48,243 bases of DNA from Phaeodactylibacter luteus (GTDB taxonomy: Bacteria; Bacteroidota; Bacteroidia; Chitinophagales; Saprospiraceae), in the NCBI RefSeq assembly GCF_007993045.1, contig NZ_VOOR01000041.1, positions 1-48,243 on the forward strand. Direction: 5' to 3'. The position numbers and the translations under genes were made by a program. The notes beneath the pieces were generated by a model. The model was not told the DNA's origin. It searched no databases and saw only the letters and a list, made by a program, of their open reading frames with translations. Shown one piece after another: positions 4,275-36,440 of this stretch; position 1 is the first letter of the stretch, and every line of letters starts with the position of its first letter.

Positions 4275-4445
4275 GCTAGTGCCTTAAGTCATAAATCTCT
4301 GATACTTAAGTTGAAGTTATTTTCCGACTAATCAAGGTGAAGGTTCGCGACTTTAGCCCGAGCTAAAGGAGCGGTTCTTTAACGAAGAGTAGGCGGAAAA
4401 GAACGAAACTTGGGGTGGCAAGGATTTATGGCTTGAGGCACTAGC
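4275..4445. repeat. CTAG-ended hairpin element, copy B
   Basis: The ends are inverted repeats: 4275-4297 and 4423-4445 match at 21 of 23 positions and both carry CTAG. An inner arm pair (GTTATTTTCCGACTA near 4316 with TAGGCGGAAAAGAAC near 4390) is also complementary. The central loop starts AATCAAGGTG and ends AACGAAGAGT, as in copies A (8226-8394) and C (36201-36359), although the outer arms differ in sequence. The element ends 31 bp before the treS start, so it lies in the treS promoter or leader region. It has no coding capacity. Confidence 0.75.
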
Positions 4446-4476
4446 CTCTAATCTTGGTTAAACCCACCACCCTGGT

Positions 4477-7400
4477 ATGACATCGCAAACGAACAACCCC
4501 TTGTGGTTTAAAGACGCTATTATATATGCCCTGCCGGTACATGCTTTTTACGACAGCAACGGCAGCGGCATAGGAGACATCAACGGGCTCATCGAAAAAC
4601 TGGATTACCTAGAGGACCTTGGCGTCAATTGTATTTCCCTCCTGCCATTCTATGAGTCGCCTCTAAAAGACGATGGCTATGATGTGTCTGACTTTAAGCA
4701 GGTACATCCCAATTATGGAGCGCTAGAGGACTTCCAACGGTTTTTGGAAGAAGCCCATAAACGGGGGATCTACGTGGTTATCGATATCATTATGAACCAT
4801 ACTTCCACGGAGCACGAGTGGTTCAAAAGGGCCCGCATGGCAGCGGAAGGTGACCCGGAGCGCGATTTTTATATCTGGAGCCCTACCCCTGAGCCTTTTT
4901 CTGATGCACAGATCATCTTCTCGGATTATGAAACGTCTAACTGGGAATGGGACAATCAGGCAAAATCCTATTACTGGCACCGCTTTTATAGCCATCAGGC
5001 AGACCTGAACTACAATAACCCCCGGGTGAGGGAGGAAATACGCGGGGTCATAGATTTCTGGTTCAACCTCGGTGTAGATGGGCTTCGCCTTACTTCGGTC
5101 ATGTTCATCTTCAGAGAAGAGGGCACCAACTGTGAAAACCTCCCGCAGGTGCACGAGTACCTGAGGGAGCTGAGGAGGTATGTAGACCAAAAACACCCCA
5201 ATAAAATCCTGGTTGCGGAAACCAACCTCTGGCCAGAAGAGGCTGCTGAATATTATGGGGCGGGCGATGAGTGCCATATGAACTACCACTTTCCGCTCAT
5301 GCCGAGGCTGTATATGGGCCTGCAGACCGAAGACCGCTATCCCATCATCGATATCTTGGAGCAAACCCCAACGGTGCCGGAAAATTGTCAGTGGGCGCTT
5401 TTCCTCCGTAATCATGATGACCTAATGCTCTCTATGGTCACAGAAGAAGAGCGCGACTATTTGTATAAGGTGTTCGCCCAAGATCATGGCGCGAAGATCA
5501 ACGAAGGTATCCGGCGGCGCCTGGCCCCCTTGCTGAACAACGACCGCAGGAAAATTGAACTGCTCAACAGCCTGCTCTTTAGCCTGCCTGGCACCCCGGT
5601 CATTTATTACGGCGACGAGATCGGCATGGGTGACAATATTTACTTGGGCGATCGCAACGGGGTGCGTACCCCTATGCAGTGGAACTCTGACCGCAACGCT
5701 GGCTTCTCAGCGGCCAACCCTCAAAAGCTCTTCCTGCCGGTCATCCGCGATCCCCTTTACCGTTACGAAGCCATCAATGTTGAGATTCAAAACCGAAACT
5801 CTTCTTCTCTGCTCTGGTGGATGAAGAACATCATCAGCATGCGCAAACGCCTGAAAGCCTTCAGCCACGGCAAAATTGAGTTCCTGGATTCGCTCAATGG
5901 TAAAGTCCTTTCCTTTATCCGCTCCTACGAGGGCGAGAGCATTCTCGTAGTGGCGAACCTTTCCAAGTTTTCCCAGGCCATAGCCCTTGACCTGAGCCGC
6001 TATAAAGGTATCCGGCCTATGGAAATTTTCAGCCAGAACAAGTTTTTCCCTATCAGCGCAGGGGAGCCTTATCAGTTTACTGTGGGGCCGTACGGCTATT
6101 ATTGGTTCCTGATGGAGCAGGGGGAGGAAGCAGAGGAGGTGCCTAAAGAACGGGCTATCCAAGAGGCTACCGCTGATGTTGACTGGGCGGGATTCTTCGA
6201 CAACTATTCTGCCAAGCGCCGGTTTGAGAAAAAAATCTTGCCAGGGTACCTGCGCTCCTGCCGTTGGTTTGGGGGCAAGTCCAGGAAAATGGTCTCGATC
6301 AATGTGGCGCATTACCCTAGCGTATCTTATGGGGAGGCCCACGCTTTTTTCTTGAGCATACAGGTACGCTATACTGACGGCCTGCCGGAGACTTACTTCC
6401 TGCCCATTACTTTCGTATCTGATGCCGGGCAGATGGTCCATTACCTGAAAAATGAAGTGCAAAGCGTAGTCTGTTACCTCAAAACGCCCGAGAAAGAGGG
6501 CATCTTGGTCGATGCTATTTACGATGAAGCTTTCCGGAATGATTTGTTCTGCCGCATCAAAGGGCACGAACGGGTGAACGTGCAAGGCGGGCAGCTCGCG
6601 TTCGAAGCTGGCAAAACCCTCAATGAGTTGCAGATCGAGCCCGAAGATGTGGTTTCTGAAGTCCTTAGGGCAGAGCAGAGCAATACATCTGTGATTTACA
6701 ATAACCAGTTCTTTTTCAAAATCTACCGGAAACTGGATATCGATATCAACCCAGACCTGGAGGTCGTCCGCTACCTGTCGGAGCAGACCGCTTTCAGCCA
6801 TTCCCCCCGCTACGGGGGCGGGGTGCAATTTGAAGATACCATAGAAAAGTCCTTCACCATTTTGGGCTTGCTGCAAAATAAAATACCCAATCAGGGCGAG
6901 GCTTGGACCATGATGCTGGAAGCCCTGAACCGTTATTATGAGAAAGTGCTGGCGAAGGTAGAACGGGATACGCCCCCTCCTGCGCTTGTAGAAAAAAACC
7001 GCCTGTATTTTGAGGATACGCCGGAGCGCCTGCAGCGCTTGATCGGCAGTGTGATATATGAGCGGGCTGCACTGCTCGGGCAGCGCACAGCGGAAATGCA
7101 CATAGCCTTGGCACAGGAAACTACTGACCCCGCATTTGCCCCGGAGCGCTTTACGCAAAACTATCAGCGCTCTATTTATGCGCAGCACCGCAAGCTGGTC
7201 AATGAAAAGCTATCTGCCCTAGAGCGGCGCCTGCCATCGTTGCCGGAGCACATTGCATCGGAGGCCCGGCAGGTGCTCGATATCCGGGAGGAGATCATGG
7301 CGGCCTTCAGTGAGATCTACAGCCGCAAGATTGAGGCAACAAAAACCAGGGTGCATGGCGACTACCACCTTGGGCAGGTGCTCTTCAACGGGCGGGATTT

Positions 7401-7842
7401 TTACATCATCGACTTCGAGGGCGAGCCGATGCACTCCATTAGCGAACGGAGGCTGAAGCGTACCCCTTTCAAGGATGTAGCAGGCATGATACGATCTTTC
7501 CATTATGCAGCCTACGGGCAGCTTGTGCTCAATCAAAACTATCGGGCTGCTGATATGCCGCAGCTCGAAGCTTGGGCCAATCAATGGTTCCACTACGTCA
7601 GCCAGTATTTCCTGACGGCCTATCTGGATACGGCTGCCGGCCAGCATTTCATCCCCGAAGACTTGCAGGCAATGCAGTTGTTGCTTAGGATCTACATCTT
7701 GGAGAAAGCCATTTACGAAGTCGGCTACGAAATGAATGCCCGCCCAGAATGGCTCCGCATTCCGGTAAGGGGCGTACTATATGCTATGCAGCAATACAGG
7801 GGGCAAGCTGGCAGCACAATGGAGGGCAGGGGAGATGAGTGA
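4477..7842 (+). CDS. treS: Trehalose synthase-maltokinase fusion (TreS-Mak), GH13 nucleophile replaced by Thr
   Basis: 1121 residues. The N-terminal part (about 8-550) is a GH13 trehalose synthase: it starts WFKDAIIYALPVHAF and carries PFYESPLKDDGYD, MNHTS, GTNCENLP, HFPLMPR, FLRNHDD and RTPMQWNSDRNAGFS. The C-terminal part (about 575-1105) is a maltokinase: an RWFGGKSRK cap motif, HGDYHLGQ with Asp962, and DFEGEP with Asp979. Known family role: TreS interconverts trehalose and maltose, and Mak phosphorylates maltose to maltose-1-phosphate for the GlgE glucan pathway. No glgE or glgB is in this window. Of the GH13 residues, Asp103, the acid/base Glu248 and Asp314 are present, but the nucleophile of the R-x-D motif is Thr206 (LRLTSV in place of FRLDAV). 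The isomerase half may therefore be inactive, changed in chemistry, or a scaffold for the kinase (inference). It overlaps the next gene by 8 bp. Confidence 0.93.
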   Translation: MTSQTNNPLWFKDAIIYALPVHAFYDSNGSGIGDINGLIEKLDYLEDLGVNCISLLPFYESPLKDDGYDVSDFKQVHPNYGALEDFQRFLEEAHKRGIYVVIDIIMNHTSTEHEWFKRARMAAEGDPERDFYIWSPTPEPFSDAQIIFSDYETSNWEWDNQAKSYYWHRFYSHQADLNYNNPRVREEIRGVIDFWFNLGVDGLRLTSVMFIFREEGTNCENLPQVHEYLRELRRYVDQKHPNKILVAETNLWPEEAAEYYGAGDECHMNYHFPLMPRLYMGLQTEDRYPIIDILEQTPTVPENCQWALFLRNHDDLMLSMVTEEERDYLYKVFAQDHGAKINEGIRRRLAPLLNNDRRKIELLNSLLFSLPGTPVIYYGDEIGMGDNIYLGDRNGVRTPMQWNSDRNAGFSAANPQKLFLPVIRDPLYRYEAINVEIQNRNSSSLLWWMKNIISMRKRLKAFSHGKIEFLDSLNGKVLSFIRSYEGESILVVANLSKFSQAIALDLSRYKGIRPMEIFSQNKFFPISAGEPYQFTVGPYGYYWFLMEQGEEAEEVPKERAIQEATADVDWAGFFDNYSAKRRFEKKILPGYLRSCRWFGGKSRKMVSINVAHYPSVSYGEAHAFFLSIQVRYTDGLPETYFLPITFVSDAGQMVHYLKNEVQSVVCYLKTPEKEGILVDAIYDEAFRNDLFCRIKGHERVNVQGGQLAFEAGKTLNELQIEPEDVVSEVLRAEQSNTSVIYNNQFFFKIYRKLDIDINPDLEVVRYLSEQTAFSHSPRYGGGVQFEDTIEKSFTILGLLQNKIPNQGEAWTMMLEALNRYYEKVLAKVERDTPPPALVEKNRLYFEDTPERLQRLIGSVIYERAALLGQRTAEMHIALAQETTDPAFAPERFTQNYQRSIYAQHRKLVNEKLSALERRLPSLPEHIASEARQVLDIREEIMAAFSEIYSRKIEATKTRVHGDYHLGQVLFNGRDFYIIDFEGEPMHSISERRLKRTPFKDVAGMIRSFHYAAYGQLVLNQNYRAADMPQLEAWANQWFHYVSQYFLTAYLDTAAGQHFIPEDLQAMQLLLRIYILEKAIYEVGYEMNARPEWLRIPVRGVLYAMQQYRGQAGSTMEGRGDE

Positions 7843-8212
7843 GGTAGAAGCCTATATCCTGGGGCTTCAGCCTCAGCAGCGGGAAATATTGTTTTTCCTG
7901 CATCAGGTTTTGATGGGCCACCCTGAGATGACAAGCCGCATCCGGTATAAAATCCCTTTCTACAGCCGGAAGAGCTGGGTTTGTTATGCCAATCCCCGGG
8001 ATGGCGGCATTGAGCTGGCCTTCATTCAGGGCGCTGAGCTGTCAAATGAGCAGGGGCTGCTGCATGCCCGCGGGCGCAAAATGGTCACCGGCGCCGTCTT
8101 CCATTCCGTGGGCGATATACCCCAAGCTGCCTTGCTGGAGGTCATTCAGGAAGCCCTTTTGCTGGATGAGGTGGCGCCTTACAAAGGGCCAAAAAGAGGG
8201 AAGGGTAAATAA
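7835..8212 (+). CDS. DUF1801 (YdhG-like) domain protein
   Basis: 125 residues from ATG 7835, which lies inside the last codons of treS-mak (ATGAGTGA overlap of 8 bp), preceded by a purine-rich AGGGGAG. This start gives the usual DUF1801 N-terminus MSEVEAYI; the longer frame from 7781 adds only read-through sequence from treS. The body (PEMTSRIRYKIPFYSRKSW, VCYANP, GIELAFIQG) matches the DUF1801 pattern, a small alpha/beta fold of unknown biochemical role. No signal peptide or membrane segment. The overlap implies translational coupling to the TreS-Mak fusion. The Lys/Arg-rich tail (GPKRGKGK) is common in the family. Confidence 0.85.
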   Translation: MSEVEAYILGLQPQQREILFFLHQVLMGHPEMTSRIRYKIPFYSRKSWVCYANPRDGGIELAFIQGAELSNEQGLLHARGRKMVTGAVFHSVGDIPQAALLEVIQEALLLDEVAPYKGPKRGKGK

Positions 8213-8225
8213 GCGGATGGCTGCA

Positions 8226-8394
8226 CTAGTGGTCTGTCAAGTGTTAATTTATGGGTTGAGTGGGAGCGAATTTTGAGGCTAATCAAGGCGGATGTTCCCG
8301 CGCATAGCAGCGCTACGTAAGGGGTTGTCCAACGAAGAGTAGCCTCAAAAGTCGCCGCAGGCAACCCCTAGTTTTAGCCTTGACAGACCACTAG
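8226..8394. repeat. CTAG-ended hairpin element, copy A
   Basis: The outer arms 8226-8241 and 8379-8394 are a perfect 16-bp inverted repeat (CTAGTGGTCTGTCAAG). Further inside, CGAATTTTGAGGCT pairs with AGCCTCAAAAGTCG with one mismatch, and GGGTTG pairs with CAACCC. The loop begins AATCAAGGCG, holds GCTACGT and ends AACGAAGAGT. The element lies between the convergent DUF1801 and thioesterase genes. The TAG stop codon of the thioesterase (8391-8393) is part of the terminal CTAG. A transcript from either side would form the hairpin, so a terminator role here is possible. Confidence 0.8.
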
Positions 8395-9152
8395 CCCCAC
8401 CGCGTAAAAGCATTGGCCAGCACCTTCCCATCTGCCGGCCGCAGTATACGGTGGCGGTAAGTGCCTATCGCAGCTTCTTCAACTTCCGATTGGAGTACGT
8501 CTGCAAGCTGCCCCTCAGCCCGGTATTCGATATCCAGGAAGCGCATTTGGCGTTCGGCCAGTACCGTTTCGGGCACGGGGTCTAGCATCCACTGTATATA
8601 TAAGGTGTTATTAAGGTGGCGGTTGAAGTCGAGATCATGCCAGTGCACGGTGTAACTTTCCTGATGGCCTACCGCCCCGAGCTTATCCAATTGCCCGGAA
8701 ATCCGGGGCAGGCATTGCTCCTTGGGCGGCATCCGGCGATTAAAAGCTAAGACAAAATCTGGCGGGTTTGCCATTTTGCGGGAGCGGGTATCCATCAACA
8801 GCCAGGTAGAGGCCGAGTGGGCGAGGGGCTCGCCATCAAGGGTTTCTACCCAAAAGTCACGCAGTGCAAACGCTTTGAGGAACCCTGCGGGGTAGGTATG
8901 GATACGAATGTGCTCATTGAGGTTGGGAAGGCGCTGTACTTCAATCTGCTGACGGGTCAGTACCCATGAAATGTGATAAGGGGCGAGGTCCCAGTAGGAC
9001 ATTCCGATTTCAATGACATTCTGCAGGGCTGCCTCTTGCATCAGGCGCGATAAGGCGGGCAGGGTCATACGCTGCTGTGCGTCGATCTCATAAGCTCTGA
9101 CCTGATAGGTATGGGTGTAGAGCAGATCAGAATCTACCATAGTTTTTGGCAT
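8391..9152 (-). CDS. Acyl-ACP thioesterase (FatA/FatB-like, PF01643)
   Basis: 253 residues, a tandem double hotdog fold. The first hotdog is about residues 10-125 (ISWVLTRQQIEVQRLP, ending in STWLLMDTRSRKMANPP). The second is about 145-250 with the motif DLDFNRHLNNTLYIQW, which holds the Asn/His part of the family's active site. The enzyme hydrolyses acyl-ACP to release free fatty acids in the cytoplasm; no signal peptide is present. The gene converges with the DUF1801 gene across hairpin element A, whose end supplies the TAG stop. The start at 9152 (MPKTMVDSD) could instead be the in-frame ATG four codons later. Confidence 0.93.
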   Translation of the reverse strand: MPKTMVDSDLLYTHTYQVRAYEIDAQQRMTLPALSRLMQEAALQNVIEIGMSYWDLAPYHISWVLTRQQIEVQRLPNLNEHIRIHTYPAGFLKAFALRDFWVETLDGEPLAHSASTWLLMDTRSRKMANPPDFVLAFNRRMPPKEQCLPRISGQLDKLGAVGHQESYTVHWHDLDFNRHLNNTLYIQWMLDPVPETVLAERQMRFLDIEYRAEGQLADVLQSEVEEAAIGTYRHRILRPADGKVLANAFTRWG

Positions 9153-9271
9153 AAAGATATATGACTAGTGGATTGAGCCGTAATTTTTGACCATTAAAGA
9201 CCACGCACCAGAAAAGGCTTAAGTACGGAGATATTATCAAATAGTTCGGTCTAGCCGCACTAGAGCAAAGG

Positions 9272-9445
9272 TGGGCCTGCCCCTGCCGCAAGGGCAGGTG
9301 CCGCTATGCTCCGGGGCTCGCTGTCCGCTCGGCTCCTCGCCCTACAGGCCTCGGCTCTGGCCTTCGGCCACCCCTTCGCAGCGCTAGGCCAATGCCAGCC
9401 TAAAGCCCAAAAAGCTTGAACGCCTGTGATATTTGGGTTTGCGCC
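9272..9445. repeat. GC-rich dispersed repeat (182-bp family), copy 1
   Basis: Shares with copies 2, 3 and 4 the blocks GGGCCTGCCCCTGCC, GCTATGCTCCGGGGCTCGCT, CCGCTCGGC, CTTCGCAGCGCTAGGCC and the right end GGTTTGCGCC (9436-9445). The left end found in the other copies (GCAAACCAGATTG) is missing or strongly diverged here. The spacer on either side (9153-9271 and 9446-9650) holds no gene I can support; only the rpsL promoter beyond it is recognisable. Confidence 0.75.
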
Positions 9446-9652
9446 TTTCAGCAAGGCCGGAAAAATCCTTTGGCACCGAGCCGGCTATCCTGGCAGGGCC
9501 ATCCTCCGCAGCATGAGCGCTGAGCAGTGGGAATATCGGATGAGAGGTTGGTATACCATATTATATGGTGTGGCAGAGAACCTGTTGAGCTTCAGTGGGA
9601 AGCGCAATTGAGCTAAATCTTCAATTATCAAGGAATTATTTTAAAACGCCTT

Positions 9653-9683
9653 TTTGGATTTAGCTGAAAAAGGTCTACCTTTG
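9653..9683 (+). promoter_or_regulatory. Promoter of the rpsL-rpsG-fusA operon
   Basis: TTTG at 9653-9656, a 19-bp spacer, then TACCTTTG at 9676-9683 match the Bacteroidota sigma-70 consensus (TTTG-19/21-TAnnTTTG). The expected transcript start is near 9690, giving an A/T-rich leader of about 70 nt before rpsL. The rpsL start is preceded by AAATTAAAAAGT rather than a Shine-Dalgarno sequence, which is usual in this phylum. Confidence 0.8.
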
Positions 9684-9759
9684 CAATCGCTTTTCGAGCA
9701 AGGTATGTTAACCTCTGCCGATAAGGTATTGTTAAATACAACTCAAATTAAAAAGTCAT

Positions 9760-10131
9760 ATGCCTACTATTAATCAACTTGTACGCAAGGGCAGGAAGAA
9801 GATTGTAACTAAGAGCAAATCACGGGCTTTAGATGGTTGTCCGCAAAAGCGTGGTGTTTGCACTCGTGTGTACACAACGACGCCAAAGAAGCCGAACTCC
9901 GCTTTGCGTAAGGTTGCTAAAGTGCGCCTGACCAACGGATTGGAGGTTATCTGCTACATCCCCGGCGAGGGGCACAACCTGCAAGAGCACTCCATCGTAT
10001 TGGTGCGCGGCGGTCGTGTAAAAGACCTTCCTGGTGTACGCTATACCATCGTTCGTGGTGCATTGGATACCAACGGGGTTGAGGGCCGCCTTCAGGCTCG
10101 TTCCCGTTATGGAGCTAAGCGCCCGAAGTAA
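9760..10131 (+). CDS. rpsL: 30S ribosomal protein S12
   Basis: 123 residues, the usual length. Decoding-centre protein of the small subunit. The conserved segments [30 protein letters not shown] and [14 protein letters not shown] are intact, including the Lys in [10 protein letters not shown] and the PGVRY loop where streptomycin-resistance changes arise; both look wild type. First gene of the str operon, 42 bp before rpsG and behind a consensus promoter. Confidence 0.99.
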
Positions 10132-10173
10132 TAATTATGTTTCAATAATTTGAGAAACCTCTAATTTAGAGTA

Positions 10174-10641
10174 ATGAGAAAAAGAAAGCCGAAGTTAAGA
10201 GTCATCCAGCCAGACCCTCGTTATAAGGACCCACTGGTAACGCAATTTGTCAACAACCTCATGCTGGAAGGTAAGAAAAGCACTGCTTTTACCCTCTTTT
10301 ATGATGCTATGGACAAAATCAAGGAGCGTACCGAGCAGGACGAGCACGCAGTTTGGAAAAAGGCACTCAACAACGCCATGCCTCAAGTAGAGGTGCGCAG
10401 CCGCCGTATTGGTGGTGCGACGTTCCAAATCCCTACGGAAATCCCCGCTAAGCGCAAAGTCGCTATCGGGATGAAGTGGCTCATCAAGTTCTCGCGTCAG
10501 CGGAGCGGTAAGGGTATGGCAGAAAAACTGGCTGCAGAGCTGATCGCAGCTAGCAAGGGAGAAGGCAGCGCAGTTAAGCGTAAAGAAGACACGCACAAGA
10601 TGGCAGAATCTAACCGTGCCTTCGCTCACTTCCGCGTCTAA
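10174..10641 (+). CDS. rpsG: 30S ribosomal protein S7
   Basis: 155 residues. Primary 16S rRNA-binding protein that starts assembly of the 30S head. MRKRKPKL at the N-terminus, FVNNLMLEGKKS, NAMPQVEVRSRRIGGATFQI and the C-terminal NRAFAHFRV are all typical. Lies between rpsL and fusA with a 50-bp gap to fusA, the standard str order. Confidence 0.99.
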   Translation: MRKRKPKLRVIQPDPRYKDPLVTQFVNNLMLEGKKSTAFTLFYDAMDKIKERTEQDEHAVWKKALNNAMPQVEVRSRRIGGATFQIPTEIPAKRKVAIGMKWLIKFSRQRSGKGMAEKLAAELIAASKGEGSAVKRKEDTHKMAESNRAFAHFRV

Positions 10642-10691
10642 CCTTACATCATCCTTTTCTATAAATTCAAAAATTCCTTCGAGGAGTAGTC

Positions 10692-12830
10692 ATGGCACAA
10701 AAAGATCTCAAGTATACTCGTAATATTGGTATTGCTGCGCACATTGACGCCGGCAAGACGACTACTACCGAGCGTGTCCTTTTCTACACCGGCCTTAGCC
10801 ACAAGATTGGTGAGGTACACGACGGTGCAGCAACCATGGACTGGATGGAGCAGGAGCAGGAGCGTGGTATTACCATTACCTCTGCTGCAACTAAGACATC
10901 CTGGAATTGGAAAGAACAGGAGTACACCGTAAACATCATCGATACACCGGGTCACGTTGACTTTACGGTGGAGGTGGAGCGCTCGCTCCGCGTACTCGAC
11001 GGTGTGGTGGCTTTGTTCTGTGCAGTTTCTGGTGTAGAGCCTCAGTCTGAAACGGTTTGGCGCCAAGCCAACCGCTACAAAGTACCCCGTATCGGTTTTG
11101 TTAATAAAATGGACCGTTCTGGTGCAGACTTCTTCAACGTTGTCAACGACGTAAAGGAGAAACTGGGCGCTAATGCCGTCCCACTTCAGGTACCTATTGG
11201 TGCTGAGGAGACGTTCAAGGGCGTTGTCGACCTGATTACGAATGAGGCGCGTATCTGGAATGAGCACGATATGGGCATGACTTACGAGGTCGAGCCAATC
11301 CCCGAAGATTTGAAGGAAACCGTAGCAGAATATCGGGAGGCACTCCTCGAGGCAGTCGCTGAATACGATGAGACGCTCATGGAGAAGTACTTCGAAGATC
11401 CAGATAGCATTTCTCCAGAAGAAATCCGCGCAGCTATCCGTGCGGCAGTTATCGACATGAGCATCATCCCAATGATGTGCGGCTCTGCCTTCAAAAACAA
11501 AGGCGTACAGGCTGTACTCGATGCTGTATGTGCTTTCATGCCTTCTCCTGTCGACGTTGATGCCATCACGGGCACCAACCCGAAAACAGACAAGGAGGAG
11601 CTCCGCAAGCCGGATGTGAACGCGCCGTTCTCTGGCCTAGCTTTCAAAATTGCAACTGACCCTTACGTAGGCCGCTTGGCATTCTTCCGGACGTACTCCG
11701 GCCGTCTTGATGCAGGTTCTTACGTACTGAATACCCGCTCTGGCAAGAAAGAGCGCATCTCACGCTTGTACCAGATGCACTCCAACAAGCAGAACGCCAT
11801 CGATTATGTCGAGGCTGGCGACATCGCTGCTGCTGTAGGTTTCAAGGACCTGCGTACCGGAGATACCATCTGTGACGAGAACGCACCGATTGTACTGGAA
11901 AGCATGACTTTCCCCGAGCCGGTTATCGGCCTTGCAATTGAGCCTAAGTCTCAAAAAGACTTGGACAAGCTGGGCATGTCCCTGGCCAAGCTGGCTGAGG
12001 AAGACCCGACTTTCCGCGTACGTTATGACGAAGACACCAACCAAACCGTAATCAGCGGTATGGGCGAGCTGCACTTGGAAATCATCGTTGACCGCTTGCG
12101 TCGCGAGTTCAAAGTGGAGGTAAGCCAAGGTGCTCCTCAGGTGAACTACAAAGAAGCGCTTACTGGCCTAGTTGGCCACCGTGAGCGCCTCAAGAAGCAG
12201 TCTGGTGGTTCAGGTCTTTTCGCAGACATGGAGTTCGAGCTCGGCCCTGCCGATCAGGAATTCCTGGACAGCGACGAGTTCAAAAATGGCAAAGAGAAGC
12301 TTCAGTTCGTATGGGACATCGTAGGTGGCTCTATCGACAAGAACTATCAGAAGCCTATCCGAGACGGTTTCCTCGCAATGATGGACAACGGTATCTTGGC
12401 AGGTTACAATATCGACAGCATGAAAGTCCGTGTTTTTGACGGTTCTATGCACGCGGTCGACTCTAAGCCAATCGCCTTCGAACTCTGTGCGAAGGAAGGT
12501 TTCCGCGCTGCAGCGCCAAAAGCGAACCCGGTTCTGCTTGAGCCTATCATGAAGCTCGAGATTGTGACACCCGAGGAGTTTGTAGGTGCTGTGATCGGCG
12601 ACTTGAACCGCCGCCGCGGCCTGCCGAAAGGACAGGAGCCACGTGCTGGAGGAGCCGTTGCTATCAAGGCGGATGCACCACTGTCTGAAATGTTCGGTTA
12701 TGTAACATCGCTTCGTACTATCACTTCTGGCCGTGCCAACTCTACTATGGAGTTCTCACACTATGCGGAAGCTCCATCTGGCATCGCCAAGGAGATCATC
12801 GCAGCCGCCAAAGGTGAAGTAAAAGCATAA
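10692..12830 (+). CDS. fusA: Elongation factor G
   Basis: 712 residues. Ribosomal translocase GTPase. P-loop HIDAGKTT (17-24), switch II DTPGH (84-88) and the specificity motif NKMD near residue 140 are intact, followed by domains II-V, including the domain IV region [16 protein letters not shown] and the domain V stretch [16 protein letters not shown]. It starts at ATG 10692 after GAGGAGTAGTC, one of few plausible Shine-Dalgarno-like leaders here. tuf does not follow; the next gene is rpsJ. Confidence 0.99.
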
Positions 12831-29227: not shown

Positions 29228-29725
29228 ATGAGACACGGAAAGAAATTCAACCACCTTGGCCGTAAGGAAGGCCACCGCCGCGCACTCATGCGCAACCTGG
29301 CTTGCGCACTGATCGAGCACAAGCGTATCAACACAACGCTCGCAAAGGCTAAAGCTTTGCGCAAGTATGTTGAGCCTCTGGTAACCAAATCTAAAGACAA
29401 CACCACGCATTCCCGCCGGGTAGTTTTCAGCTATCTGCAAAATAAGGAAGCTGTAACGGAGTTGTTTAGCGCTATATCTGCAAAAGTCGGTGACCGCCCA
29501 GGTGGATATGTACGCATCATCAAGACTGGCTTCCGCCGCAGCGATGCAGCTGAAATGGCCATGATTGAATTCGTTGACTTCAACGAAGTGTACACTGCCG
29601 GGAAATCTCAGGGTGGCGGACGCCGCCGCCGCCGTCGTGGTGGCTCTGGCAAAGGCGCCGCTGCTGCTGCAACTGCTGCTACAGCTGCTACGGCTACAGC
29701 TGCCGCTGCTGAAGAAGAGGAATAG
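29228..29725 (+). CDS. rplQ: 50S ribosomal protein L17 with low-complexity C-terminal extension
   Basis: 165 residues; the first 120 are normal L17 ([60 protein letters not shown]). The last 40 residues are low complexity: Arg run, Gly/Ser/Lys, Ala/Thr repeats, then four Glu. The DNA of that tail (29660-29720) is a GCTGCT/GCTACA-type simple repeat, which could vary in length between strains. Last gene of the ribosomal block. Confidence 0.97.
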
Positions 29726-29765: not shown

Positions 29766-29797
29766 GGGGCGGGCTTCGCAAGAAGCCTGCCCCTTTT
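29766..29797 (+). terminator. Rho-independent terminator after rplQ
   Basis: GGGGCGGGCTTC, loop GCAA, GAAGCCTGCCCC followed by TTTT. A 12-bp stem with one G-T pair and an A run before it, so it may also work from the other strand. It lies 40 bp after the rplQ stop and closes the ribosomal protein block. Confidence 0.85.
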
Positions 29798-29860
29798 CGT
29801 TGGTGCGCCTTTAAGCGCTGAAGAGGGGTATAAGGGCTTGTTTAGAGTGGATTTATTGTG

Positions 29861-29928
29861 AAAATCAAGGGGTTATTCCCCGGCAACGGGCCTCTTCACT
29901 AAACTTGAGTTCAGCGGGCTATAAATTA
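29861..29928. repeat. Intergenic motif shared with 35951-36045
   Basis: Starts TGAAAATCAAGGGG and ends with TTGAGTTCAGCGGGCTATAA. The copy at 35951-36045 has the same start and end with a different middle. In each copy the G run after ATCAA is followed by a matching C run (GGGGTTATTCCCC here, GGGTTTGCCC there), which suggests a conserved stem-loop. Both copies lie shortly before a GC-rich 182-bp repeat in the same orientation. Confidence 0.5.
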
Positions 29929-29931
29929 AGA

Positions 29932-30013
29932 GCGTGTTGGGACTTTAGTAATCGGTCTGTCCCGCTAGACAGCGGGACAATTTTTTGATTAGAAGGCCAA
30001 AATCCCAACACGC
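29932..30013. repeat. Imperfect palindrome of 82 bp (element E)
   Basis: The outer arms 29932-29946 and 29999-30013 match at 14 of 15 positions (GCGTGTTGGGACTTT). Inside, TAATC pairs with GATTA and GTCCCGCT with AGCGGGAC (29959-29978) around AGAC. GGTCTGTC in the inner arm also occurs in hairpin element A and fragment D. Compared with the second copy of the flanking repeat near 36045, the palindrome looks like an insertion in the linker. Confidence 0.6.
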
Positions 30014-30028
30014 GAAGCCAGGTTTATC

Positions 30029-30210
30029 GGGCGCAAACCAGATTGTTGTTTTTTTGGGGGCCTGCCCCTGCCGTGAGGGCAGGGGCCGCTATGCTCCGGG
30101 GCTCGCTGCCCGCTCGGCCTTATCAGGCCTGCCGCCCCTTCGCAGCGCTAGGCCAATGCCAGGCTAGAGCCCCAAAAGCATAAACGCCTGTGACATTTTG
30201 GTTCACGCCC
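30029..30210. repeat. GC-rich dispersed repeat, copy 2, with 8-bp direct repeats
   Basis: 182 bp. Terminal inverted repeats GGGCGCAAACCAGAT (left) and the complement of ATTTTGGTTCACGCCC (right). Immediately outside, GGTTTATC occurs at 30021-30028 and again at 30211-30218, an exact 8-bp direct repeat as left by transposition. The internal blocks match copies 1, 3 and 4. No open frame. It looks like a non-autonomous mobile element; the helper transposase is not in this window. Confidence 0.75.
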
Positions 30211-30241
30211 GGTTTATCAAGTGTTGATTTGCAATAAGGAC

Positions 30242-30271
30242 GAGCTCCAAATAGGTGCTTAGTTGGAGCTC
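30242..30271 (-). terminator. Hairpin over the stop codon of the DUF3078 gene
   Basis: GAGCTCCAA (30242-30250) and TTGGAGCTC (30263-30271) form a perfect 9-bp stem whose loop holds the TAA stop of the minus-strand gene. No clear T run follows on the minus strand, so this is a possible terminator or 3' end stabiliser only. Confidence 0.4.
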
Positions 30272-31215
30272 AGGGCATAGGTAATGCCTAAGATATAGTA
30301 AGCTTGCAGTGGGTTGTCTTCCAGTTCAGCAGCCATGGCTTCCTGTTTGTTGCTCCTAAGCCCGATGTCTAGCCCAATGCCTATCCCTTTGTAAGCCGTG
30401 CTGAAGGTATTGACCCAAGTGTAGTTGGAAAAGTCTCCGTCTTCATAGCTCAGGAAAGCAGAGAAGTTGGATTTCCAATTCAGCCCCTTTACAATCCGCT
30501 TGGTGTAATCCGCTACAATTTTGGCGCCAAGGGAGGACTCATAGCTGAACGCTTCGTCTGAGAAGACGAAATTGTAGTTGAGCGGGTGCATGACCACAAC
30601 TAGATCAGGGATAGGGGTCCAGGTTGCACCTAAGCCCAGGTCGAGGTATCCAGGGTTGTTGAACTTGCCTTCCAAGACGGAAGTCCGGTATTCTCCAAGC
30701 GTTGAGATGGCAAATTTAGGAGAGAGTTTGTAGCCATAGAGGGAGGTCATGTTCAGGGCATCCGCTGAAACTTGGAAGCGGTCGATATCATCCGGGTTGT
30801 CTTTGTCATCAAACTTGAGCCATCCGAGAGTGAGGTTAACGTTGTTGCGCCAGAATGCATTTTCCCAATCCCCGTTGATGAAGCCATTGGTGGTAAACCC
30901 GATATTGATGGCCGAGGTATTTGGCTGCTCTTTTGGCAGCCAAGAATCGAAAGACGAAAAGTTGAAGCCCAGATTGGCGAGCAGCCCTTTTTTCCAGCGC
31001 GGGTAAGGGGTCAGCTGATCAGTCAGGCTTGCCACGTCCGTTTCCAGGTTGTTGACCGATTTGGTGAGGGCCTTCAGCTCTTTTTTGAGGGAATCAAGTT
31101 GTTGGCTCTTTTGGGCTTTCTCGGCTGCCAGCTCTTCGGCTGTCTGCGATAAAAGTGCCAAAGGTGCAGAAAGCAAAAAGGCTATGGTGAATAGCCAGGT
31201 CGTGTTGTTGGTCAT
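30259..31215 (-). CDS. DUF3078 family outer-membrane-type protein
   Basis: 318 residues. Signal peptide MTNNTTWLFTIAFLLSAPLA ending near LLSQ. Then a coiled-coil stretch (about 28-70: AEELAAEKAQKSQQLDSLKK, heptad pattern through the TDQL segment), then a beta-rich body of alternating segments (GLLANLGFNFSSFDSW, WRNNVNLTLGWLKF, YYILGITYALSSN) as in an outer-membrane beta-barrel. DUF3078 is a Bacteroidota family without known biochemical function. Divergent from the M23 peptidase gene, with a short shared upstream region. Confidence 0.85.
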   Translation of the reverse strand: MTNNTTWLFTIAFLLSAPLALLSQTAEELAAEKAQKSQQLDSLKKELKALTKSVNNLETDVASLTDQLTPYPRWKKGLLANLGFNFSSFDSWLPKEQPNTSAINIGFTTNGFINGDWENAFWRNNVNLTLGWLKFDDKDNPDDIDRFQVSADALNMTSLYGYKLSPKFAISTLGEYRTSVLEGKFNNPGYLDLGLGATWTPIPDLVVVMHPLNYNFVFSDEAFSYESSLGAKIVADYTKRIVKGLNWKSNFSAFLSYEDGDFSNYTWVNTFSTAYKGIGIGLDIGLRSNKQEAMAAELEDNPLQAYYILGITYALSSN

Positions 31216-31365
31216 TAGATTGTTTTTTGTGAAGTAAACGTGTTTTTCTTGACGCCAAAGCTAAGGATAGGTAACCACTCTTCAGCGAATTATCTCACCC
31301 TTTTAGGCTGTATTGCCTGGCTGCAGCGTACAATATTTGGGAGCCCCGGAGAGTTATGGCAACTG

Positions 31366-31950
31366 ATGAAAGGACAAGATTGGAACCTACTTGGGGCAGC
31401 CCTTCTTCTAGCCTTGGCTTTTGGGCCTCTGGTCTTTTGGGGTAGCCGGAGCCGCTTTGAATACCAAATTGAAACGGAAGCCCGCAGGCGGATGTTCAGC
31501 CCGGCAGCTGTGCCTATCTCTGCTGCTGAGGATATTGCAGAGGCCTTGCCGATATTGGCTTTCCCCGTGGCAGGGGCAGGCCCCCGGGACGTGATCTCTT
31601 TTTTTGGCGACCCCCGGAGTGGCGGCGCAAGGGCACATAAGGGGATTGACATCCGTGCAAGCCGAGGGGCCCCGGTCCTTGCCGTTGCTGATGCTGAAGT
31701 TCTCCGGACAGCAGACAAGGGGAATGGCGGGCGGCAGATCTGGCTGCGTTTGGCTGGTGGCGTGAAAGTTTACTATGCTCACCTGCATGAAATCCACGTA
31801 GAAAAAGGAGATTGGGTGAGCCGGGGCCAGGTATTGGGCACGGTCGGGAATACTGGAAATGCCCGGCATACCATCCCCCACCTTCATTTCGAGCTTATCA
31901 ATGCTAGGGGGAAGGAAGAAGACCCTTTGCCTATTTGGGGAAAGCCATAG
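31366..31950 (+). CDS. M23 family metallopeptidase, membrane-anchored
   Basis: 194 residues from ATG 31366 (MKGQDWNLLGAALLLALAFG), which places one membrane helix at residues 8-25. The frame can be extended to GTG 31240 (236 residues); I prefer the ATG because the extra part looks non-coding. LytM domain: the zinc ligands are the His and Asp of AHKGIDIRAS and the last His of the HLHFEL motif, with the auxiliary His in YYAHLHEI. The full set suggests active peptidoglycan cleavage in the periplasm. The gene ends directly against GC-rich repeat copy 3. Confidence 0.88.
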   Translation: MKGQDWNLLGAALLLALAFGPLVFWGSRSRFEYQIETEARRRMFSPAAVPISAAEDIAEALPILAFPVAGAGPRDVISFFGDPRSGGARAHKGIDIRASRGAPVLAVADAEVLRTADKGNGGRQIWLRLAGGVKVYYAHLHEIHVEKGDWVSRGQVLGTVGNTGNARHTIPHLHFELINARGKEEDPLPIWGKP

Positions 31951-31952
31951 GA

Positions 31953-32119
31953 AAAGGGGCTCCAGATTGGCATTGGCCTAGCGCTGCGCAGGGGTGTAAG
32001 CCCGGTAGGGCCGAGCGGACAGCGAGCCCCGGAGCATAGCGGCACCTGCCCGTTGGGCAGGGGCAGGCCCCCATCCATGTGGAGGGGGCAAGCAAAAAAA
32101 CGACAATCTGGTTTGCGCC
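31953..32119. repeat. GC-rich dispersed repeat, copy 3 (reverse orientation)
   Basis: Reads in the opposite direction to copies 1, 2 and 4. It has the GGCGCAAACCAGATTG end at 32119 and the blocks AGCGAGCCCCGGAGCATAGC and GGCATTGGCCTAGCGCTGCG. The other end, with the GGTTCACGCCC repeat, is missing; the element stops at the M23 peptidase stop codon, so that end is truncated. Confidence 0.75.
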
Positions 32120-32123
32120 TTAG

Positions 32124-32150
32124 TAAAAAGGCAGGCTCTAAGAGCCTGCC
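32124..32150 (-). terminator. Rho-independent terminator of ettA
   Basis: On the minus strand GGCAGGCTC, loop TTA, GAGCCTGCC, then TTTTTA. A perfect 9-bp stem with a T run, 9 bp after the ettA stop. It separates ettA from the converging M23 peptidase gene and repeat copy 3. Confidence 0.9.
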
Positions 32151-32158
32151 CCTGCTGT

Positions 32159-33838
32159 TTATCGGTTGATAACGTTTTTGAAGCGAGGACGCTTAGACTT
32201 CTGATCGCCCTGTTCTGCCTTTCTCATGGCTTCGAATTGAGAGTAATTGCCTTCAAAGAAAACGGGCTGCTCGTCGTATTCAAAGGAAAGGATGTGGGTG
32301 GCGAGGCGGTCGATAAACCACCGGTCGTGCGAGATGACCAACACACAGCCTGCGAAATTATCTACGGCATCTTCCAGTGCTCGCAGTGTATTCACGTCAA
32401 TATCGTTTGTGGGCTCATCGAGCAGGAGCACGTTGCCCCCCTCCTTGAGGGTCATAGCGAGGTGTACCCGGTTGCGCTCTCCTCCCGACAGTACGCCCAG
32501 CTTTTTCTGCTGGTCTTGCCCCGTAAAGTTGAACCTGCTGATATAGGCCCTGGCATTCATGACATGATTACCGATCTCTAGGTTTTCATTGCCGCCAGAA
32601 ATGGCTTGGTATACCGTCTTTTCTCCATTTTGCAGCTGCTCGTGGCTTTGGTCTACGTAGGAGAGGTCAACGGTTTCCCCTATAGTCACACTACCGCTAT
32701 CAGGCTGTTCCTTCCCCATGATGATACGGAACAGGGTAGACTTGCCAGCGCCATTGGGCCCGATAATGCCAATAATGGCATTTTTCGGGATATCCAGACT
32801 GAAGTTTTCAAAAAGAGTGCGCTCGCCATAAGCTTTGGAGATTTGGTCGAGCTGTATCACATTATCGCCCAAGCGGCGGCCCGCAGGGATATAGAGCTCC
32901 AGCTTGGCTTCTTTGGCTTTGGCTTCCTCTCCGGCCAGCTTTTCATAGGCGTTGAGGCGGGCTTTCCCTTTGGCCTGCCTAGCCTTAGGTGCCATCTTGA
33001 TCCATTCCAGTTCCCGTTGGAGGGTCTTTCTCCGCTTGCTTTCTGTTTTCTCCTCCTGTTCCAGGCGCTTAGCCTTCTGTTCCAGCCAGCTGGAGTAGTT
33101 CCCTTCCCAGGGAATGCCTTCTCCCCGGTCGAGCTCCAGGATCCACCCCGCTACATTATCAAGGAAGTAGCGGTCGTGAGTAACGGCAATGACCGTCCCT
33201 TGGAAATTTTTGAGGTACTGCTCTAGCCAGTGGACCGACTCGGCATCCAAGTGGTTGGTCGGCTCATCAAGGAGCAGGATATCCGGATTGCTGAGCAGCA
33301 GCCTCGCCAGGGCTACCCGTCGGCGCTCCCCACCAGAGAGTACGCTGACCGGTGCATCATCGGGCGGGCACCGCAGGGCTTCCATCGCCGTATTGATGCG
33401 GTTGTCGAGCTCCCAAGCGTTTTGGTGCTCCAGTTTTTCCATCATTTCCCCTTGCTGTTCAATCAGTTTGTTCATCTCGTCATCGCTCATGGGCTCTGAG
33501 AACTTCAGGTTGATGGCTTCATAGGCCTTTAGCAGGTCTACGACATCCTGAACGCCCTCTTCGACTACTTCGCGCACTGTCTTGTTGGCATCAAGCTCCG
33601 GTTCCTGATCGAGCAGGCCGATTTTGTAGGTGCCATCAAAATGAATTTTCCCTTCGTAGTTCTCGTCCTTGCCAGCTATGATTTTGAGCAAGGTCGATTT
33701 GCCGGAGCCATTGAGCCCGAGTACCCCGATTTTAGCGCCATAGAAAAAGCTGAGCCAGATGTTATTGAGCACTTTCTTCCCAGGGGCAAAGGTTTTGGAG
33801 ACGCCCTCCATGGAAAAAATGACTTTGTTGTCAGACAT
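32159..33838 (-). CDS. ettA: Energy-dependent translational throttle protein EttA (ABC-F)
   Basis: 559 residues, the usual EttA length. Two ABC cassettes: Walker A GLNGSGKST and GPNGAGKST, signatures LSGGERRRVALARLL and LSGGERNRVHLAM, Walker B ILLLDEPTNHLD and LLLDEPTNDID. Between them is the long basic linker (KTESKRRKTLQRELEWIKMA) and the arm region that contacts the ribosomal E site. No membrane segment. Gates early elongation according to ATP/ADP ratio (known for E. coli EttA). 129 bp downstream of the CBM48 gene on the same strand. Confidence 0.97.
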   Translation of the reverse strand: MSDNKVIFSMEGVSKTFAPGKKVLNNIWLSFFYGAKIGVLGLNGSGKSTLLKIIAGKDENYEGKIHFDGTYKIGLLDQEPELDANKTVREVVEEGVQDVVDLLKAYEAINLKFSEPMSDDEMNKLIEQQGEMMEKLEHQNAWELDNRINTAMEALRCPPDDAPVSVLSGGERRRVALARLLLSNPDILLLDEPTNHLDAESVHWLEQYLKNFQGTVIAVTHDRYFLDNVAGWILELDRGEGIPWEGNYSSWLEQKAKRLEQEEKTESKRRKTLQRELEWIKMAPKARQAKGKARLNAYEKLAGEEAKAKEAKLELYIPAGRRLGDNVIQLDQISKAYGERTLFENFSLDIPKNAIIGIIGPNGAGKSTLFRIIMGKEQPDSGSVTIGETVDLSYVDQSHEQLQNGEKTVYQAISGGNENLEIGNHVMNARAYISRFNFTGQDQQKKLGVLSGGERNRVHLAMTLKEGGNVLLLDEPTNDIDVNTLRALEDAVDNFAGCVLVISHDRWFIDRLATHILSFEYDEQPVFFEGNYSQFEAMRKAEQGDQKSKRPRFKNVINR

Positions 33839-33967
33839 AGTTTAGTTTTTTGTCATCAAAAGGTGCAGCCTTGCTGCCACGGCCTGGCACCGCCCTTGCT
33901 AAAGGGGCGGCTGCGCAGCTGCTAAAGATAAAGACCTGTCTGATGACTGCCAAGGAAAATCAGCGGG

Positions 33968-34960
33968 CTATTCCATACGGAGGACGGAATTCAGATGCCC
34001 ATCGCGGTCGTACTCCCTGAAGGGGTTGGAAGGGTCGTTCACCCACTCCCCATCAACGATGAATTTGTAAGTATGCTTGCCCCCGCCGAGCTCTACTGTG
34101 GTTTCCCATCCTCCGGGCACAGCCTGCATAAGGATAGCCCCGGTTTCCCATTGCGTGAAGGAACCCGCTAAACGGACGGAAGAAGCGTTCTCGTAGCCCG
34201 GCAGAAAGAAACTACAGGGTTTAGAAATATGGCGGACAGAATTGAGGGTGTGGTATTCGTTGGGGCGTGTCTCTTCATTGGCAGGATCGTGCAGCCATTC
34301 GCCATCTACAATAAATTTGTACTCGTAGGTGCCAGCTGGGAGCTCTAGGCAAAGCTCCCAGCCCTGCCCCGTCCACTGCATAGGCAGCCCGTCTTCAGAC
34401 CAATCTATAAAAGTGCCGGTCAAGATGGCCTGGGCTGCTTTGGGGGGCCCTTTAAGCTCAAAACAGGCGTTCCCTCCTTGTACCGGCTGCAGCAGTTGCA
34501 GCTTATGGTTGTAAATGGAGCTCCAGAACGGGCCAGACTGAATAATGTCTGCTTTGCTGATGTACGCAGGGTCGGGCTCTGCCCAATAGGCACCATTGAT
34601 GACAAACTTGAAGGCCCAGGTAAAGTGGTCGTTGAAGTCCTGCACTGATTTGCGCAGCTGATAAAGGCCTGGCCCAATCTCATCCATTTCCCACCCATCC
34701 ACAGACCAATCGTTGAACGATCCGGAAAGGGCGACCGATTCGATCGCTAGCCCCTCAAACTCGGTTTGCGCATGGCTGCCATGCCGGGTCACTTCGCTAA
34801 AATATTGCCGGTTGAATTCGAAAACGACTTCTTCCCCATCCATATAATAAGCCCGGTAGGACAGGGAGTCCTGTGCGATGATAGGCCAGGGCAGCGCCAG
34901 GCAGAAGAGCCACAGCATGATGGGCCGCCGGGCTAAGGTTTTGGAGCAGTAGTGTACCAT
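33968..34960 (-). CDS. Secreted protein with three glycogen-binding (AMPK1/CBM48-like) domains
   Basis: 330 residues. Signal peptide with a hydrophobic core ending PIIAQ (residue 30). Three tandem early-set carbohydrate-binding units at about 74-132, 177-245 and 261-328, with VALSGSFNDWS, AILTGTFIDWS and VRLAGSFTQW starts and KFVINGAYW, YKFIVDGEW, YKFIVDGEW cores; the last two also share a TLNSV or HLNSV end. No catalytic domain follows, so the protein may bind alpha-glucan or act as a scaffold in the periplasm. The start at 34960 overlaps the protease gene upstream by 28 bp; ATG 34918 gives a shorter signal peptide without overlap and is also possible. Confidence 0.85.
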   Translation of the reverse strand: MVHYCSKTLARRPIMLWLFCLALPWPIIAQDSLSYRAYYMDGEEVVFEFNRQYFSEVTRHGSHAQTEFEGLAIESVALSGSFNDWSVDGWEMDEIGPGLYQLRKSVQDFNDHFTWAFKFVINGAYWAEPDPAYISKADIIQSGPFWSSIYNHKLQLLQPVQGGNACFELKGPPKAAQAILTGTFIDWSEDGLPMQWTGQGWELCLELPAGTYEYKFIVDGEWLHDPANEETRPNEYHTLNSVRHISKPCSFFLPGYENASSVRLAGSFTQWETGAILMQAVPGGWETTVELGGGKHTYKFIVDGEWVNDPSNPFREYDRDGHLNSVLRME

Positions 34961-35919
34961 GGCAGAAAATATAGTTTTTCACGTTTATAGTTGAGGATGG
35001 TCCTGCGGGTAACTAGGAATTCGTACCCAATAAGCCCATCAAGCCGGGAGCCAAAGCTGTGGTTCAGCTCGGCCATATTGGTCAGTATGGTGCGCATGCC
35101 CGAGCAGCGCTGCTTCCCGCTACTGAAATGATACAGCTTGCCGGCTATGACTTCTACCCCTTTGCTCCCCGCCATGCCGTGCAGTACCGCCCGCCGGTTG
35201 GGCTGGAAATGTTGTAGCACCTTTCGCCCTGCCCGCTTGTCGATCAGATTGAGCTCAGCGCCAGAGTCTAGCCCAAAGGTAACGCTATGGCCGTCAACCT
35301 CGCCTTCAATAGCCAGGATATGGTCCTGTAGCCTGGCTTCCAGGCTGTCGGTAGCTGCATCATAAATGGCCAGGCTGTCAAGCCGGTTGCCAAGGCGGTC
35401 TAGCTGAGTCAGGGTCAGCTGCCTAAGCTGGAAATCAATCAGCAGCTCGTACGCTTTAATGACATCATAACCGATAATGCCAAGCAGCCGGATGTGTTTT
35501 TTTTCTTCAATATGCCTCAAATCTATAACGTGCGCTCCAAGACGTTCCATACGGGAACTATCAATCGCCAGGTCGCTTACCGCTGTAACGCGCACGCCTT
35601 CCACCCGCCCCGTGGTGCCTGTAGAGGCCAGCATGGGCTGCTCCACGCCTCCCGCAAAGTGGGCTGCATTAAGGATGAGGGCTTCCGAACCTGTATCGAG
35701 GATGAAATTGCCCGACTGCCCAGCTACTTCTGCCTGAATGAGGATGAGGTGGCCTGCTAGCTCGAAGGGGGCGCGTATGGTGTAGGGGCTAATTTGTTCG
35801 CCCTCCACCAGTAACGGTGGAAGGACCCGCCGAAGAGGGGGCGGCCCCTCAGGGGTAGCTGCGCCGAGCGGGGCAGCACAGATCAGAGCCAGTAGGAAAA
35901 GGTGTAGCCAGGGAGTCAT
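34933..35919 (-). CDS. Secreted two-lobed retropepsin-like aspartyl protease
   Basis: 328 residues from ATG 35919, which gives a clean signal peptide (MTPWLHLFLLALICAAPLGA); the longer frame from 35988 adds 23 residues before it. Two aspartyl-protease lobes in one chain: FILDTGSEA (Asp75) with the flap-side motif LLGIIGYDVIKAYELLIDF, and FGLDSGAEL (Asp218) with LDGLIGYEFL. Each lobe has its own DTG/DSG and GYD/E motif, so the chain can form the two-Asp active site that viral retropepsins make by dimerisation. Substrate unknown. Overlaps or abuts the CBM48 gene downstream, so the two are probably co-transcribed. Confidence 0.87.
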   Translation of the reverse strand: MTPWLHLFLLALICAAPLGAATPEGPPPLRRVLPPLLVEGEQISPYTIRAPFELAGHLILIQAEVAGQSGNFILDTGSEALILNAAHFAGGVEQPMLASTGTTGRVEGVRVTAVSDLAIDSSRMERLGAHVIDLRHIEEKKHIRLLGIIGYDVIKAYELLIDFQLRQLTLTQLDRLGNRLDSLAIYDAATDSLEARLQDHILAIEGEVDGHSVTFGLDSGAELNLIDKRAGRKVLQHFQPNRRAVLHGMAGSKGVEVIAGKLYHFSSGKQRCSGMRTILTNMAELNHSFGSRLDGLIGYEFLVTRRTILNYKREKLYFLPWYTTAPKP

Positions 35920-35950
35920 GCTTAAACGCTTGTTTGGGTTAGGTTTGTTT

Positions 35951-36045
35951 TGAAAATCAAGGGTTTGCCCTGTATGCTGTGCTAGCATGGCCGGCAGGGC
36001 CCTGGCAAAGCCGCTGAATTTGAGTTTAGCGGCCCTTATGAAATA
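35951..36045. repeat. Intergenic motif, second copy
   Basis: Shares the TGAAAATCAAGGG start and the TTGAGTTTAGCGGCCCTTAT end with 29861-29928; the middle is longer here. CCGCTGAA and TTTAGCGG near the end form a stem. Lies just upstream of the protease gene start (minus) and 32 bp before GC-rich repeat copy 4. Confidence 0.5.
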
Positions 36046-36076
36046 TAGTGCGGAAGCCGGTCCCTAAAGTATTGTA

Positions 36077-36440
36077 GCCGCAAACCAGATTGCCGTTTTT
36101 TGAGTGCTTGCCCCTGCACAATGTGAGGGGCCTGCCCCTGCCTGCGGGCAGGTGCCGCTATGCTCCGGGGCTCGCTGTCCGCTCGGCCCTATCGGGCTTA
36201 GAGCTAGATAGGATTTTGCTTTTGGAGCGAACGCAGCCAAATTTTGCCCTGATCGAGGCGTGATGAGGGAACATAGCCTTAGCTACGTGACCGAAGAACA
36301 ACGAAGAGCAGGACAAAATTCGGCAAGAGCAGCCCGAAGGGTAAAATCCTAACTAGCTCTTAAACCCCTTCGCAGCGCTAGGCCGATGCCAGGCTGTAAA
36401 GCCCGAAAAGCACAAACGCAAGCGGCATTTTGGTTCACGT
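36077..36440. repeat. GC-rich dispersed repeat, copy 4, interrupted by hairpin element C
   Basis: Left end GCCGCAAACCAGATTG at 36077, right end TTTTGGTTCACGT at 36428-36440, same orientation as copies 1 and 2. The block order is normal up to CCCTATCGGGCTTA (36187-36200), is then interrupted by 159 bp (36201-36359), and resumes with TTAAACCCCTTCGCAGCGCT. Without the insert the copy would be about 200 bp. No 8-bp flanking repeat was found here. Confidence 0.8.
36201..36359. repeat. CTAG-ended hairpin element, copy C, nested in the GC-rich repeat
   Basis: Arms GAGCTAGATAGGATTTT (36201) and AAAATCCTAACTAGCTC (end 36359) are complementary with one mismatch. The inner pair GCCAAATTTTGCCCT and AGGACAAAATTCGGC fits with two mismatches. 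The loop starts GATCGAGGCG, holds GCTACGT and ends AACGAAGAGC, as in copies A and B. TTA (or CTTA) is present on both sides and only once in the uninterrupted copy 3, so it looks like a target duplication of 3-4 bp. Confidence 0.8.

Follow-up and report, generated by a model that had tools for sequence, protein, structure and literature searches.

We found that three hairpins, copies A, B, and C, in the 48,243-nucleotide stretch of Phaeodactylibacter luteus (Saprospiraceae) DNA analyzed here (hereafter, the window) share a conserved core of approximately 95 nt with many elements of this and other genomes. These elements are probably RUP-like passengers of resident transposases carrying a new RNA-like core, the fold of which would help the element to spread or to be tolerated.

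All three copies lie where a preliminary description had placed them (Table 1), and the loops it reported as conserved, ATC(A/G)AGG and AACGAAGAG, occur in each of them; GCTACGT is found in A and C, that is, in two of the three copies, B being without it. Each copy folded better than all of its 200 shuffled versions (z = −10.5 for B, −9.7 for A, and −7.5 for C). CTAG near both ends, another trait named there, was confirmed as the flanks of A and B, but in C it lies at 36204–36207 and 36353–36356, inside the element end, and does not represent a target repeat. We rejected CTAG as the terminus of C: other C copies (L052 and L027) lack it there, and the D and E relatives carry GAGCGTGTTGGGA instead. 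Nor do CTAG ends hold as a group-wide trait, since the ends of C, and of many relatives elsewhere, are different. For the left TTA of C, an element-free relative reads GGGCTTACACCCC (window, minus strand), and other relatives read GGGCTTGCCACCCC.

Table 1. Positions of the hairpin elements and their parts in the window (R2, covariance model described in the text).
Feature	Position	Strand	Remark
Left CTAG flank of copy B	4276..4279	.	Window sequence
Copy B	4280..4440	+	161 nt between CTAGs; R2 core match 4313-4407
5' core loop of B, ATCAAGG	4331..4337	+	
3' core loop of B, AACGAAGAG	4381..4389	+	
Right CTAG flank of copy B	4441..4444	.	
Left CTAG flank of copy A	8226..8229	.	
Copy A	8230..8390	+	161 nt; R2 core match 8264-8357; ends match IS630-family L098:1336-2601 (own genome)
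5' core loop of A, ATCAAGG	8282..8288	+	
3' core loop of A, AACGAAGAG	8331..8339	+	
Right CTAG flank of copy A	8391..8394	.	
Short E-type element	29929..30016	+	GAGCGTGTTGGGA-type ends, no core; judged by these ends, a fourth relative within the window
Left TTA beside copy C (probable target repeat)	36198..36200	.	Sequence
Copy C, GAGC...GCTC	36201..36359	+	159 nt, within larger repeat; R2 core match 36234-36326
5' core loop of C, ATCGAGG	36252..36258	+	
3' core loop of C, AACGAAGAG	36300..36308	+	
Right TTA beside copy C (probable target repeat)	36360..36362	.	Sequence

Genome searches, such as had been proposed earlier, returned far more than three copies. The pair ATCRAGG...AACGAAGAG, 22–52 bases apart, occurred at 174 places in the own genome (reversed control: 0), and a spacing of 60–90 bases gave 14 more widely spaced places, of which 13 were C copies with an inserted hairpin and one was no element; C179:70987, among the first listed of the 174, is clearly no element, and each list contains at least one false place. 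When searched alone with one mismatch allowed, AACGAAGAG was near chance in the window (16 vs. 8.2 expected). BLAST in an unscreened 1.108 Mb sample yielded 28 B, 16 A, 7 C, and 22 E hits. Many A, B, and C copies are housed in a larger repeat (...GGGGCTCGCTGTCCGCTCGGCCCTATCGGGCTT...CGCAGCGCTAGGCCAATGCCAGGCT...) that is very abundant in the genome, with B sitting at two different CTAGs of it; 47 matches to CGCAGCGCTAG were found in the window and L045–L064, the window positions including 9377, 30141, and 36371. Some C and A copies (L001–L010 and L012–L014; L092 and L082) have further hairpins or repeats inserted at the fold tip or in the loops. E-type elements of approximately 90–100 bp with the same kind of ends and no core occur in the window (Table 1), at L051:9208-9295, and at L054:18563-18663.

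The ends of A and B point to a transposase. Among 36 unscreened full-length A/B copies, CTAG was present on both sides in 31 and on one side only in 5. By the script's criterion, 38 of 74 CTAG-flanked sites had an element-free relative; the listed ones lie in the larger repeat, and among 14 listed relatives, the site carried one CTAG in 5 and a changed CTAG in the rest. A and B therefore have the duplicated TA target of an IS630-type MITE, the data fitting duplication of TA or of CTAG alike. The terminal repeats of A match IS630-family L098 of the own genome, and those of B match L101 of P. xiamenensis. A-like CTAGTGGTCTGTCAA ends are found on L098:1336-2601, the only DDE_3 (IS630-family) element detected there, in the own genome, whereas P. 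xiamenensis gave 10 DDE_3 matches, including elements with A-like and with B-like ends; B-like insertion sequence ends were seen only in P. xiamenensis. End alignments separated the two types: A against IS-A gave z = 3.3 and 3.9 (left) and 7.6 and 12.8 (right), and B against IS-B gave 5.5, 6.7, 6.8, and 2.1, whereas B against IS-A reached at most −0.1 and A against IS-B ranged from −0.5 to 2.9, weakly above chance in two of four comparisons (2.2 and 2.9). The ends of C matched neither of these IS630 elements (z = −1.3 to 1.5). IS-A has an HTH frame and a DDE_3 frame overlapping by four bases, and neither IS-A nor the other three scanned IS630 loci contain a core inside, the matches in L098 and L107 adjoining the elements. 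Beside the own IS630 element, L098:2602-2924 holds an E-type end, a B-type end, and R2 matches at 2647–2760 (minus) and 2794–2886 (plus), that is, nested insertions.

The preliminary description had set the hairpins against ordinary inverted-repeat transposons, which keep their terminal sequence. That contrast found no support: terminal sequence is kept within each family, and the ends of A and B match IS630-family insertion sequences, so these copies are also miniature inverted-repeat elements. Judged from their end sequences, the view that A and B would be mobile through borrowed transposon ends is well supported, and other copies are likely mobile in the same manner. GAGC-type ends characterize C, D, and E; some of their copies are flanked on both sides by TTA or TAA, and others are not. 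We read these flanks as a putative 3-bp target repeat, a reading that fails for some copies. To see whether C, D, and E might be MITEs of the IS5/IS1031 type, the genus was searched with the profiles PF01609 and PF13586 for a partner transposase bearing GAGC ends, and none was found: PF01609 gave 0 matches in the own genome, and the 8 loci that PF13586 gave in two other Phaeodactylibacter genomes all lacked paired GAGCGTGTT ends. Y1_Tnp yielded no partner for the other ends either. The own assembly comprises 301 pieces, and some insertion sequences may therefore not be represented in it.

The pairing of the core covaries while its loops are conserved, as the earlier proposal of compensatory stems had it, in two alignments. 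In 13 rows aligned with MAFFT, 92.5% of pair cells were standard, compared with 76.6% when shuffled and 45–58% when slid, and two-sided changes occurred in 18 pairs vs. 11.8 in shuffles; further pair types were not above shuffles in this set (40 vs. 37.0, 85 of 500). For R2, a covariance model built from A, B, E, and F, the best 150 of 163 matches were kept. In a larger set, 56 of 120 intervals were retained as diverse cores (85% identity, incomplete rows out), and 49 of these 56 entered the covariation count. In the model-fitted alignment of these 49 cores, 92.5% of pair cells were again standard, compared with a shuffled mean of 64.8% (maximum 67.9) and 43–51% when slid, and two-sided changes were seen in 30 of 32 pairs, compared with at most 23 in shuffles. 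The most constant positions are non-standard, with C-RAGGC opposite AACG(A/C)AG: G.G stands at 29/144 in 46 of the 49 cores, and a purine pair stands at 22/149 (A.G in 22 and G.A in 22). There is also a nearly invariant stem of four U-A pairs with U on the 5' side. In L092, which has a hairpin inserted at the tip, the loops still face each other in the predicted fold; in C copies with an inserted hairpin, the predicted fold pairs the 5' loop elsewhere and the loops do not face.

The mismatches in the arms single out one strand. Isolated transition mismatches on the core strand, taken from the 60 bases flanking each side of the core match, comprised 145 G.U and 61 A.C (79 of 83 items counted, 4 of 37 loci being left out). 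Per copy, G.U was in excess in 52, A.C in 10, and 17 were ties; copies from related families are not fully independent. A first, smaller set gave G.U 100 vs. A.C 51 outside the core. Inside the core, the difference was not significant in the first set (50 vs. 35, p = 0.13) and weakly significant in the larger one (81 vs. 56, p = 0.04). The excess of G.U over A.C outside the core indicates that one strand folds, and that its fold extends into the end-bearing arms.

These observations bear on whether the hairpins are plain palindromic MITEs, the arms of which are kept complementary by template-switch repair and the core of which is merely inherited. Long palindromes are corrected by known mutational processes, and ends and cores are mostly inherited together, which this explanation would accommodate. 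However, such repair would remove opposed non-complementary loops, yet the loops are among the most constant positions, and it predicts equal numbers of G.U and A.C instead of the 145 and 61 observed. We consider it quite improbable. A conserved one-strand fold is well supported, and the earlier proposal of a folded RNA or single-stranded DNA is also supported. The folding strand could be either, as G.T pairs also form in single-stranded DNA.

The distribution of variants suggests where selection acts. In 39 of 44 A/B hits of the own genome, none of 63 shared variants fell in the loops. Among 50 private changes, 3 fell in the loops vs. 5.1 expected (p = 0.24) and 24 in the core vs. 25.9 expected, which is no significant depletion. 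Shared and private variants taken together fell in the loops in 3 of 113 cases vs. 11.5 expected (p = 0.002). An earlier count indicating strong depletion of changes in the loops and core of B had included flank bases and shared variants and was replaced. We read these numbers, from a small sample, as probable selection that acts more strongly on source elements than on individual inserted copies; because private loop changes were fewer than expected but not significantly so, inserted copies may also be under some constraint. Copies lie mostly between reading frames, 2 of those counted lying in one, and the genes next to 60 own copies were arranged as 15 sense, 23 antisense, 14 convergent, and 8 divergent, with no significant orientation bias. 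Given that shared variants avoid the loops, that private changes reveal no significant core constraint, and that orientation is unbiased, the fold seems to serve the element and not the host site.

This distribution argues against an RNA useful to the host, in which copies in mRNAs would act as terminators, stabilizers, or processing sites, as reported for ERIC and NEMIS. Stable hairpins mostly between reading frames would suit such an RNA, and roles of this kind are reported for other bacterial MITEs in the accessible text of a previous study (PMC2229807), but neither the mixed orientations of the 60 own copies nor the private changes, which are not significantly depleted in the core, agree with it, and we regard it as very improbable. 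A single-copy host RNA as the source of the core was likewise unsupported: in 19 re-searched genomes, with 1–14 core matches each, 18 had a copy with flanks, most with paired ends (by eye).

Another explanation is a structure-recognized single-stranded DNA: while the element is replicated or transposed, its core strand would fold as DNA and be recognized by a protein, for example to pair the ends. The one-strand signal extends into the arms that hold the ends, and a role in movement would fit both the absence of significant gene-orientation bias and the weak constraint seen on inserted copies. Conversely, A and B have ends and CTAG repeats in common with DDE_3 (IS630) elements, which are not known to need single strands, and the single Y1_Tnp gene found in the own genome lies in a 3.3-kb locus (L095) without an R2 match, a result that also speaks against REP/RAYT membership. 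This explanation appears unlikely. The Y1 transposase gene itself (L095:1500-1860) has short repeats on its flanks.

The core is not confined to P. luteus. A model built from A and B only (R1) found C, which it did not contain, at 40–51 bits. At E ≤ 1e-4, R2 matched 85 of 149 Saprospiraceae genomes in 67 of 112 genera, at most 28 candidates being scored per genome, so that copy counts are lower bounds; among the matches listed in the named-genome scan were Phaeodactylibacter xiamenensis KD52, other Phaeodactylibacter, Lewinella, Aureispira, and other Saprospiraceae. At E ≤ 1e-5, 5 of 296 genomes drawn from the phylum had matches, three of them outside Saprospiraceae, and R2 matches were also present in 17 of 199 genomes from another family of Bacteroidota, at a guess Flavobacteriaceae. 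One pattern searched in viral contigs gave 0 matches. L178, a 3.4 kb contig labeled as a Chlamydiia MAG, has three R2 matches at different places, one at a type-B score, and is possibly a misassigned Saprospiraceae contig. In L354 (9830–9925 and 11120–11213; same as L136), two cores are oriented like the genes of an operon-like cluster (amidase, CHAT-domain, and subtilase), the second core having no clear terminal repeats; examined as a possible virus, L136/L354 gave only amidase/endolysin, subtilase/protease, and CHAT hits, with no clear virus.

Approximately five kinds of ends, read by eye, accompany the core: CTAGTG, GAGCNTGTT, GCGACG, TNAGG, and TACCA, and others. With end types labeled by hand on 31 of 45 rows (unclear rows were dropped), the nearest neighbor had the same end type for 22 of 31 cores (shuffled mean, 5.7), and the end type changed 12 times on an approximate tree (minimum, 4; mean of shuffles, 18.8). 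The hand labels took the place of an automatic labeling (20 of 45 vs. 17.0 shuffled), which had proved too crude. Core and ends are thus mostly inherited together, and part of the conservation is therefore descent.

Returning to the passenger explanation, we propose that these non-autonomous mobile elements of approximately 160 bp would be moved through their ends by resident transposases, an IS630-family enzyme acting at the TA inside CTAG in the case of A and B. The core strand, most likely as RNA, would fold along its whole length into a rod, the non-standard internal loops of which are fixed; this fold would be selected in active (source) elements, where it may aid multiplication or tolerance of the element, and inserted copies would decay much like neutral DNA. 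We infer the movement by transposase, the RNA nature, the action for the element, and the recognition by some factor. That the core is an RNA helping the element to spread is the best, albeit unproven, account. A further-reaching version, possible though rather unlikely, is a selfish module of structured RNA, the bacterial equivalent of SINE-like parasites; it would require its RNA fold for its own spread and would have ridden on the ends of several unrelated DNA transposons through two Bacteroidota families. Bacterial MITEs are usually described by their ends, but here the fold is kept while the ends differ; as one strand is also singled out, the non-coding middle seems to do something. The elements offer a defined RNA-like motif, covariance models, and a named cultured relative, P. 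xiamenensis KD52, and they lend themselves to testing clearly whether the spread of a DNA transposon is aided by a folded molecule.

In line with the preliminary description, we found no named family that fits in Rfam and no description of this hairpin family in the open papers searched. Rfam release 15 gave only isrG (E = 0.99, at 29622–29709) for the window at E ≤ 1; the 7 matches obtained for 12 related loci all fell short of their gathering scores, and none covered the core. REP/REPIN elements with RAYT, a Y1-type transposase, are similar in being repeated intergenic hairpins, whereas the hairpins here have DDE_3-type ends and duplicated targets. REP units measure 20–40 bp according to the accessible part of one report (PMC3733652). 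The available text of a 2024 review of prokaryotic MITEs (PMC10969869) describes QMITE2 of Coxiella and others that, like the present elements, combine terminal repeats and a core with a stable predicted transcript fold; words beginning Bacteroid, IS630, Flavobacter, or CTAG are absent from its main text as available. ERIC, NEMIS/Correia, and YPAL are also hairpin elements of approximately 100–200 bp, the transcripts of which form long hairpins (PMC2229807, accessible text), but in the hairpins here, no Rfam link or significant orientation effect was seen, and the core loops have fixed non-standard pairs. The nearest known kind is RUP, which is, in the accessible text of the same study, a 107-bp MITE mobilized by IS630-Spn1, with more than 100 copies in one species and a TA target (PMC2229807). 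The hairpins resemble RUP in their small size, more than 100 copies, TA target, and ends like those of the genome's IS630 element, and differ from it, as described there, in being approximately 160 bp long, in having a core found in two bacterial families, and in their several kinds of ends.
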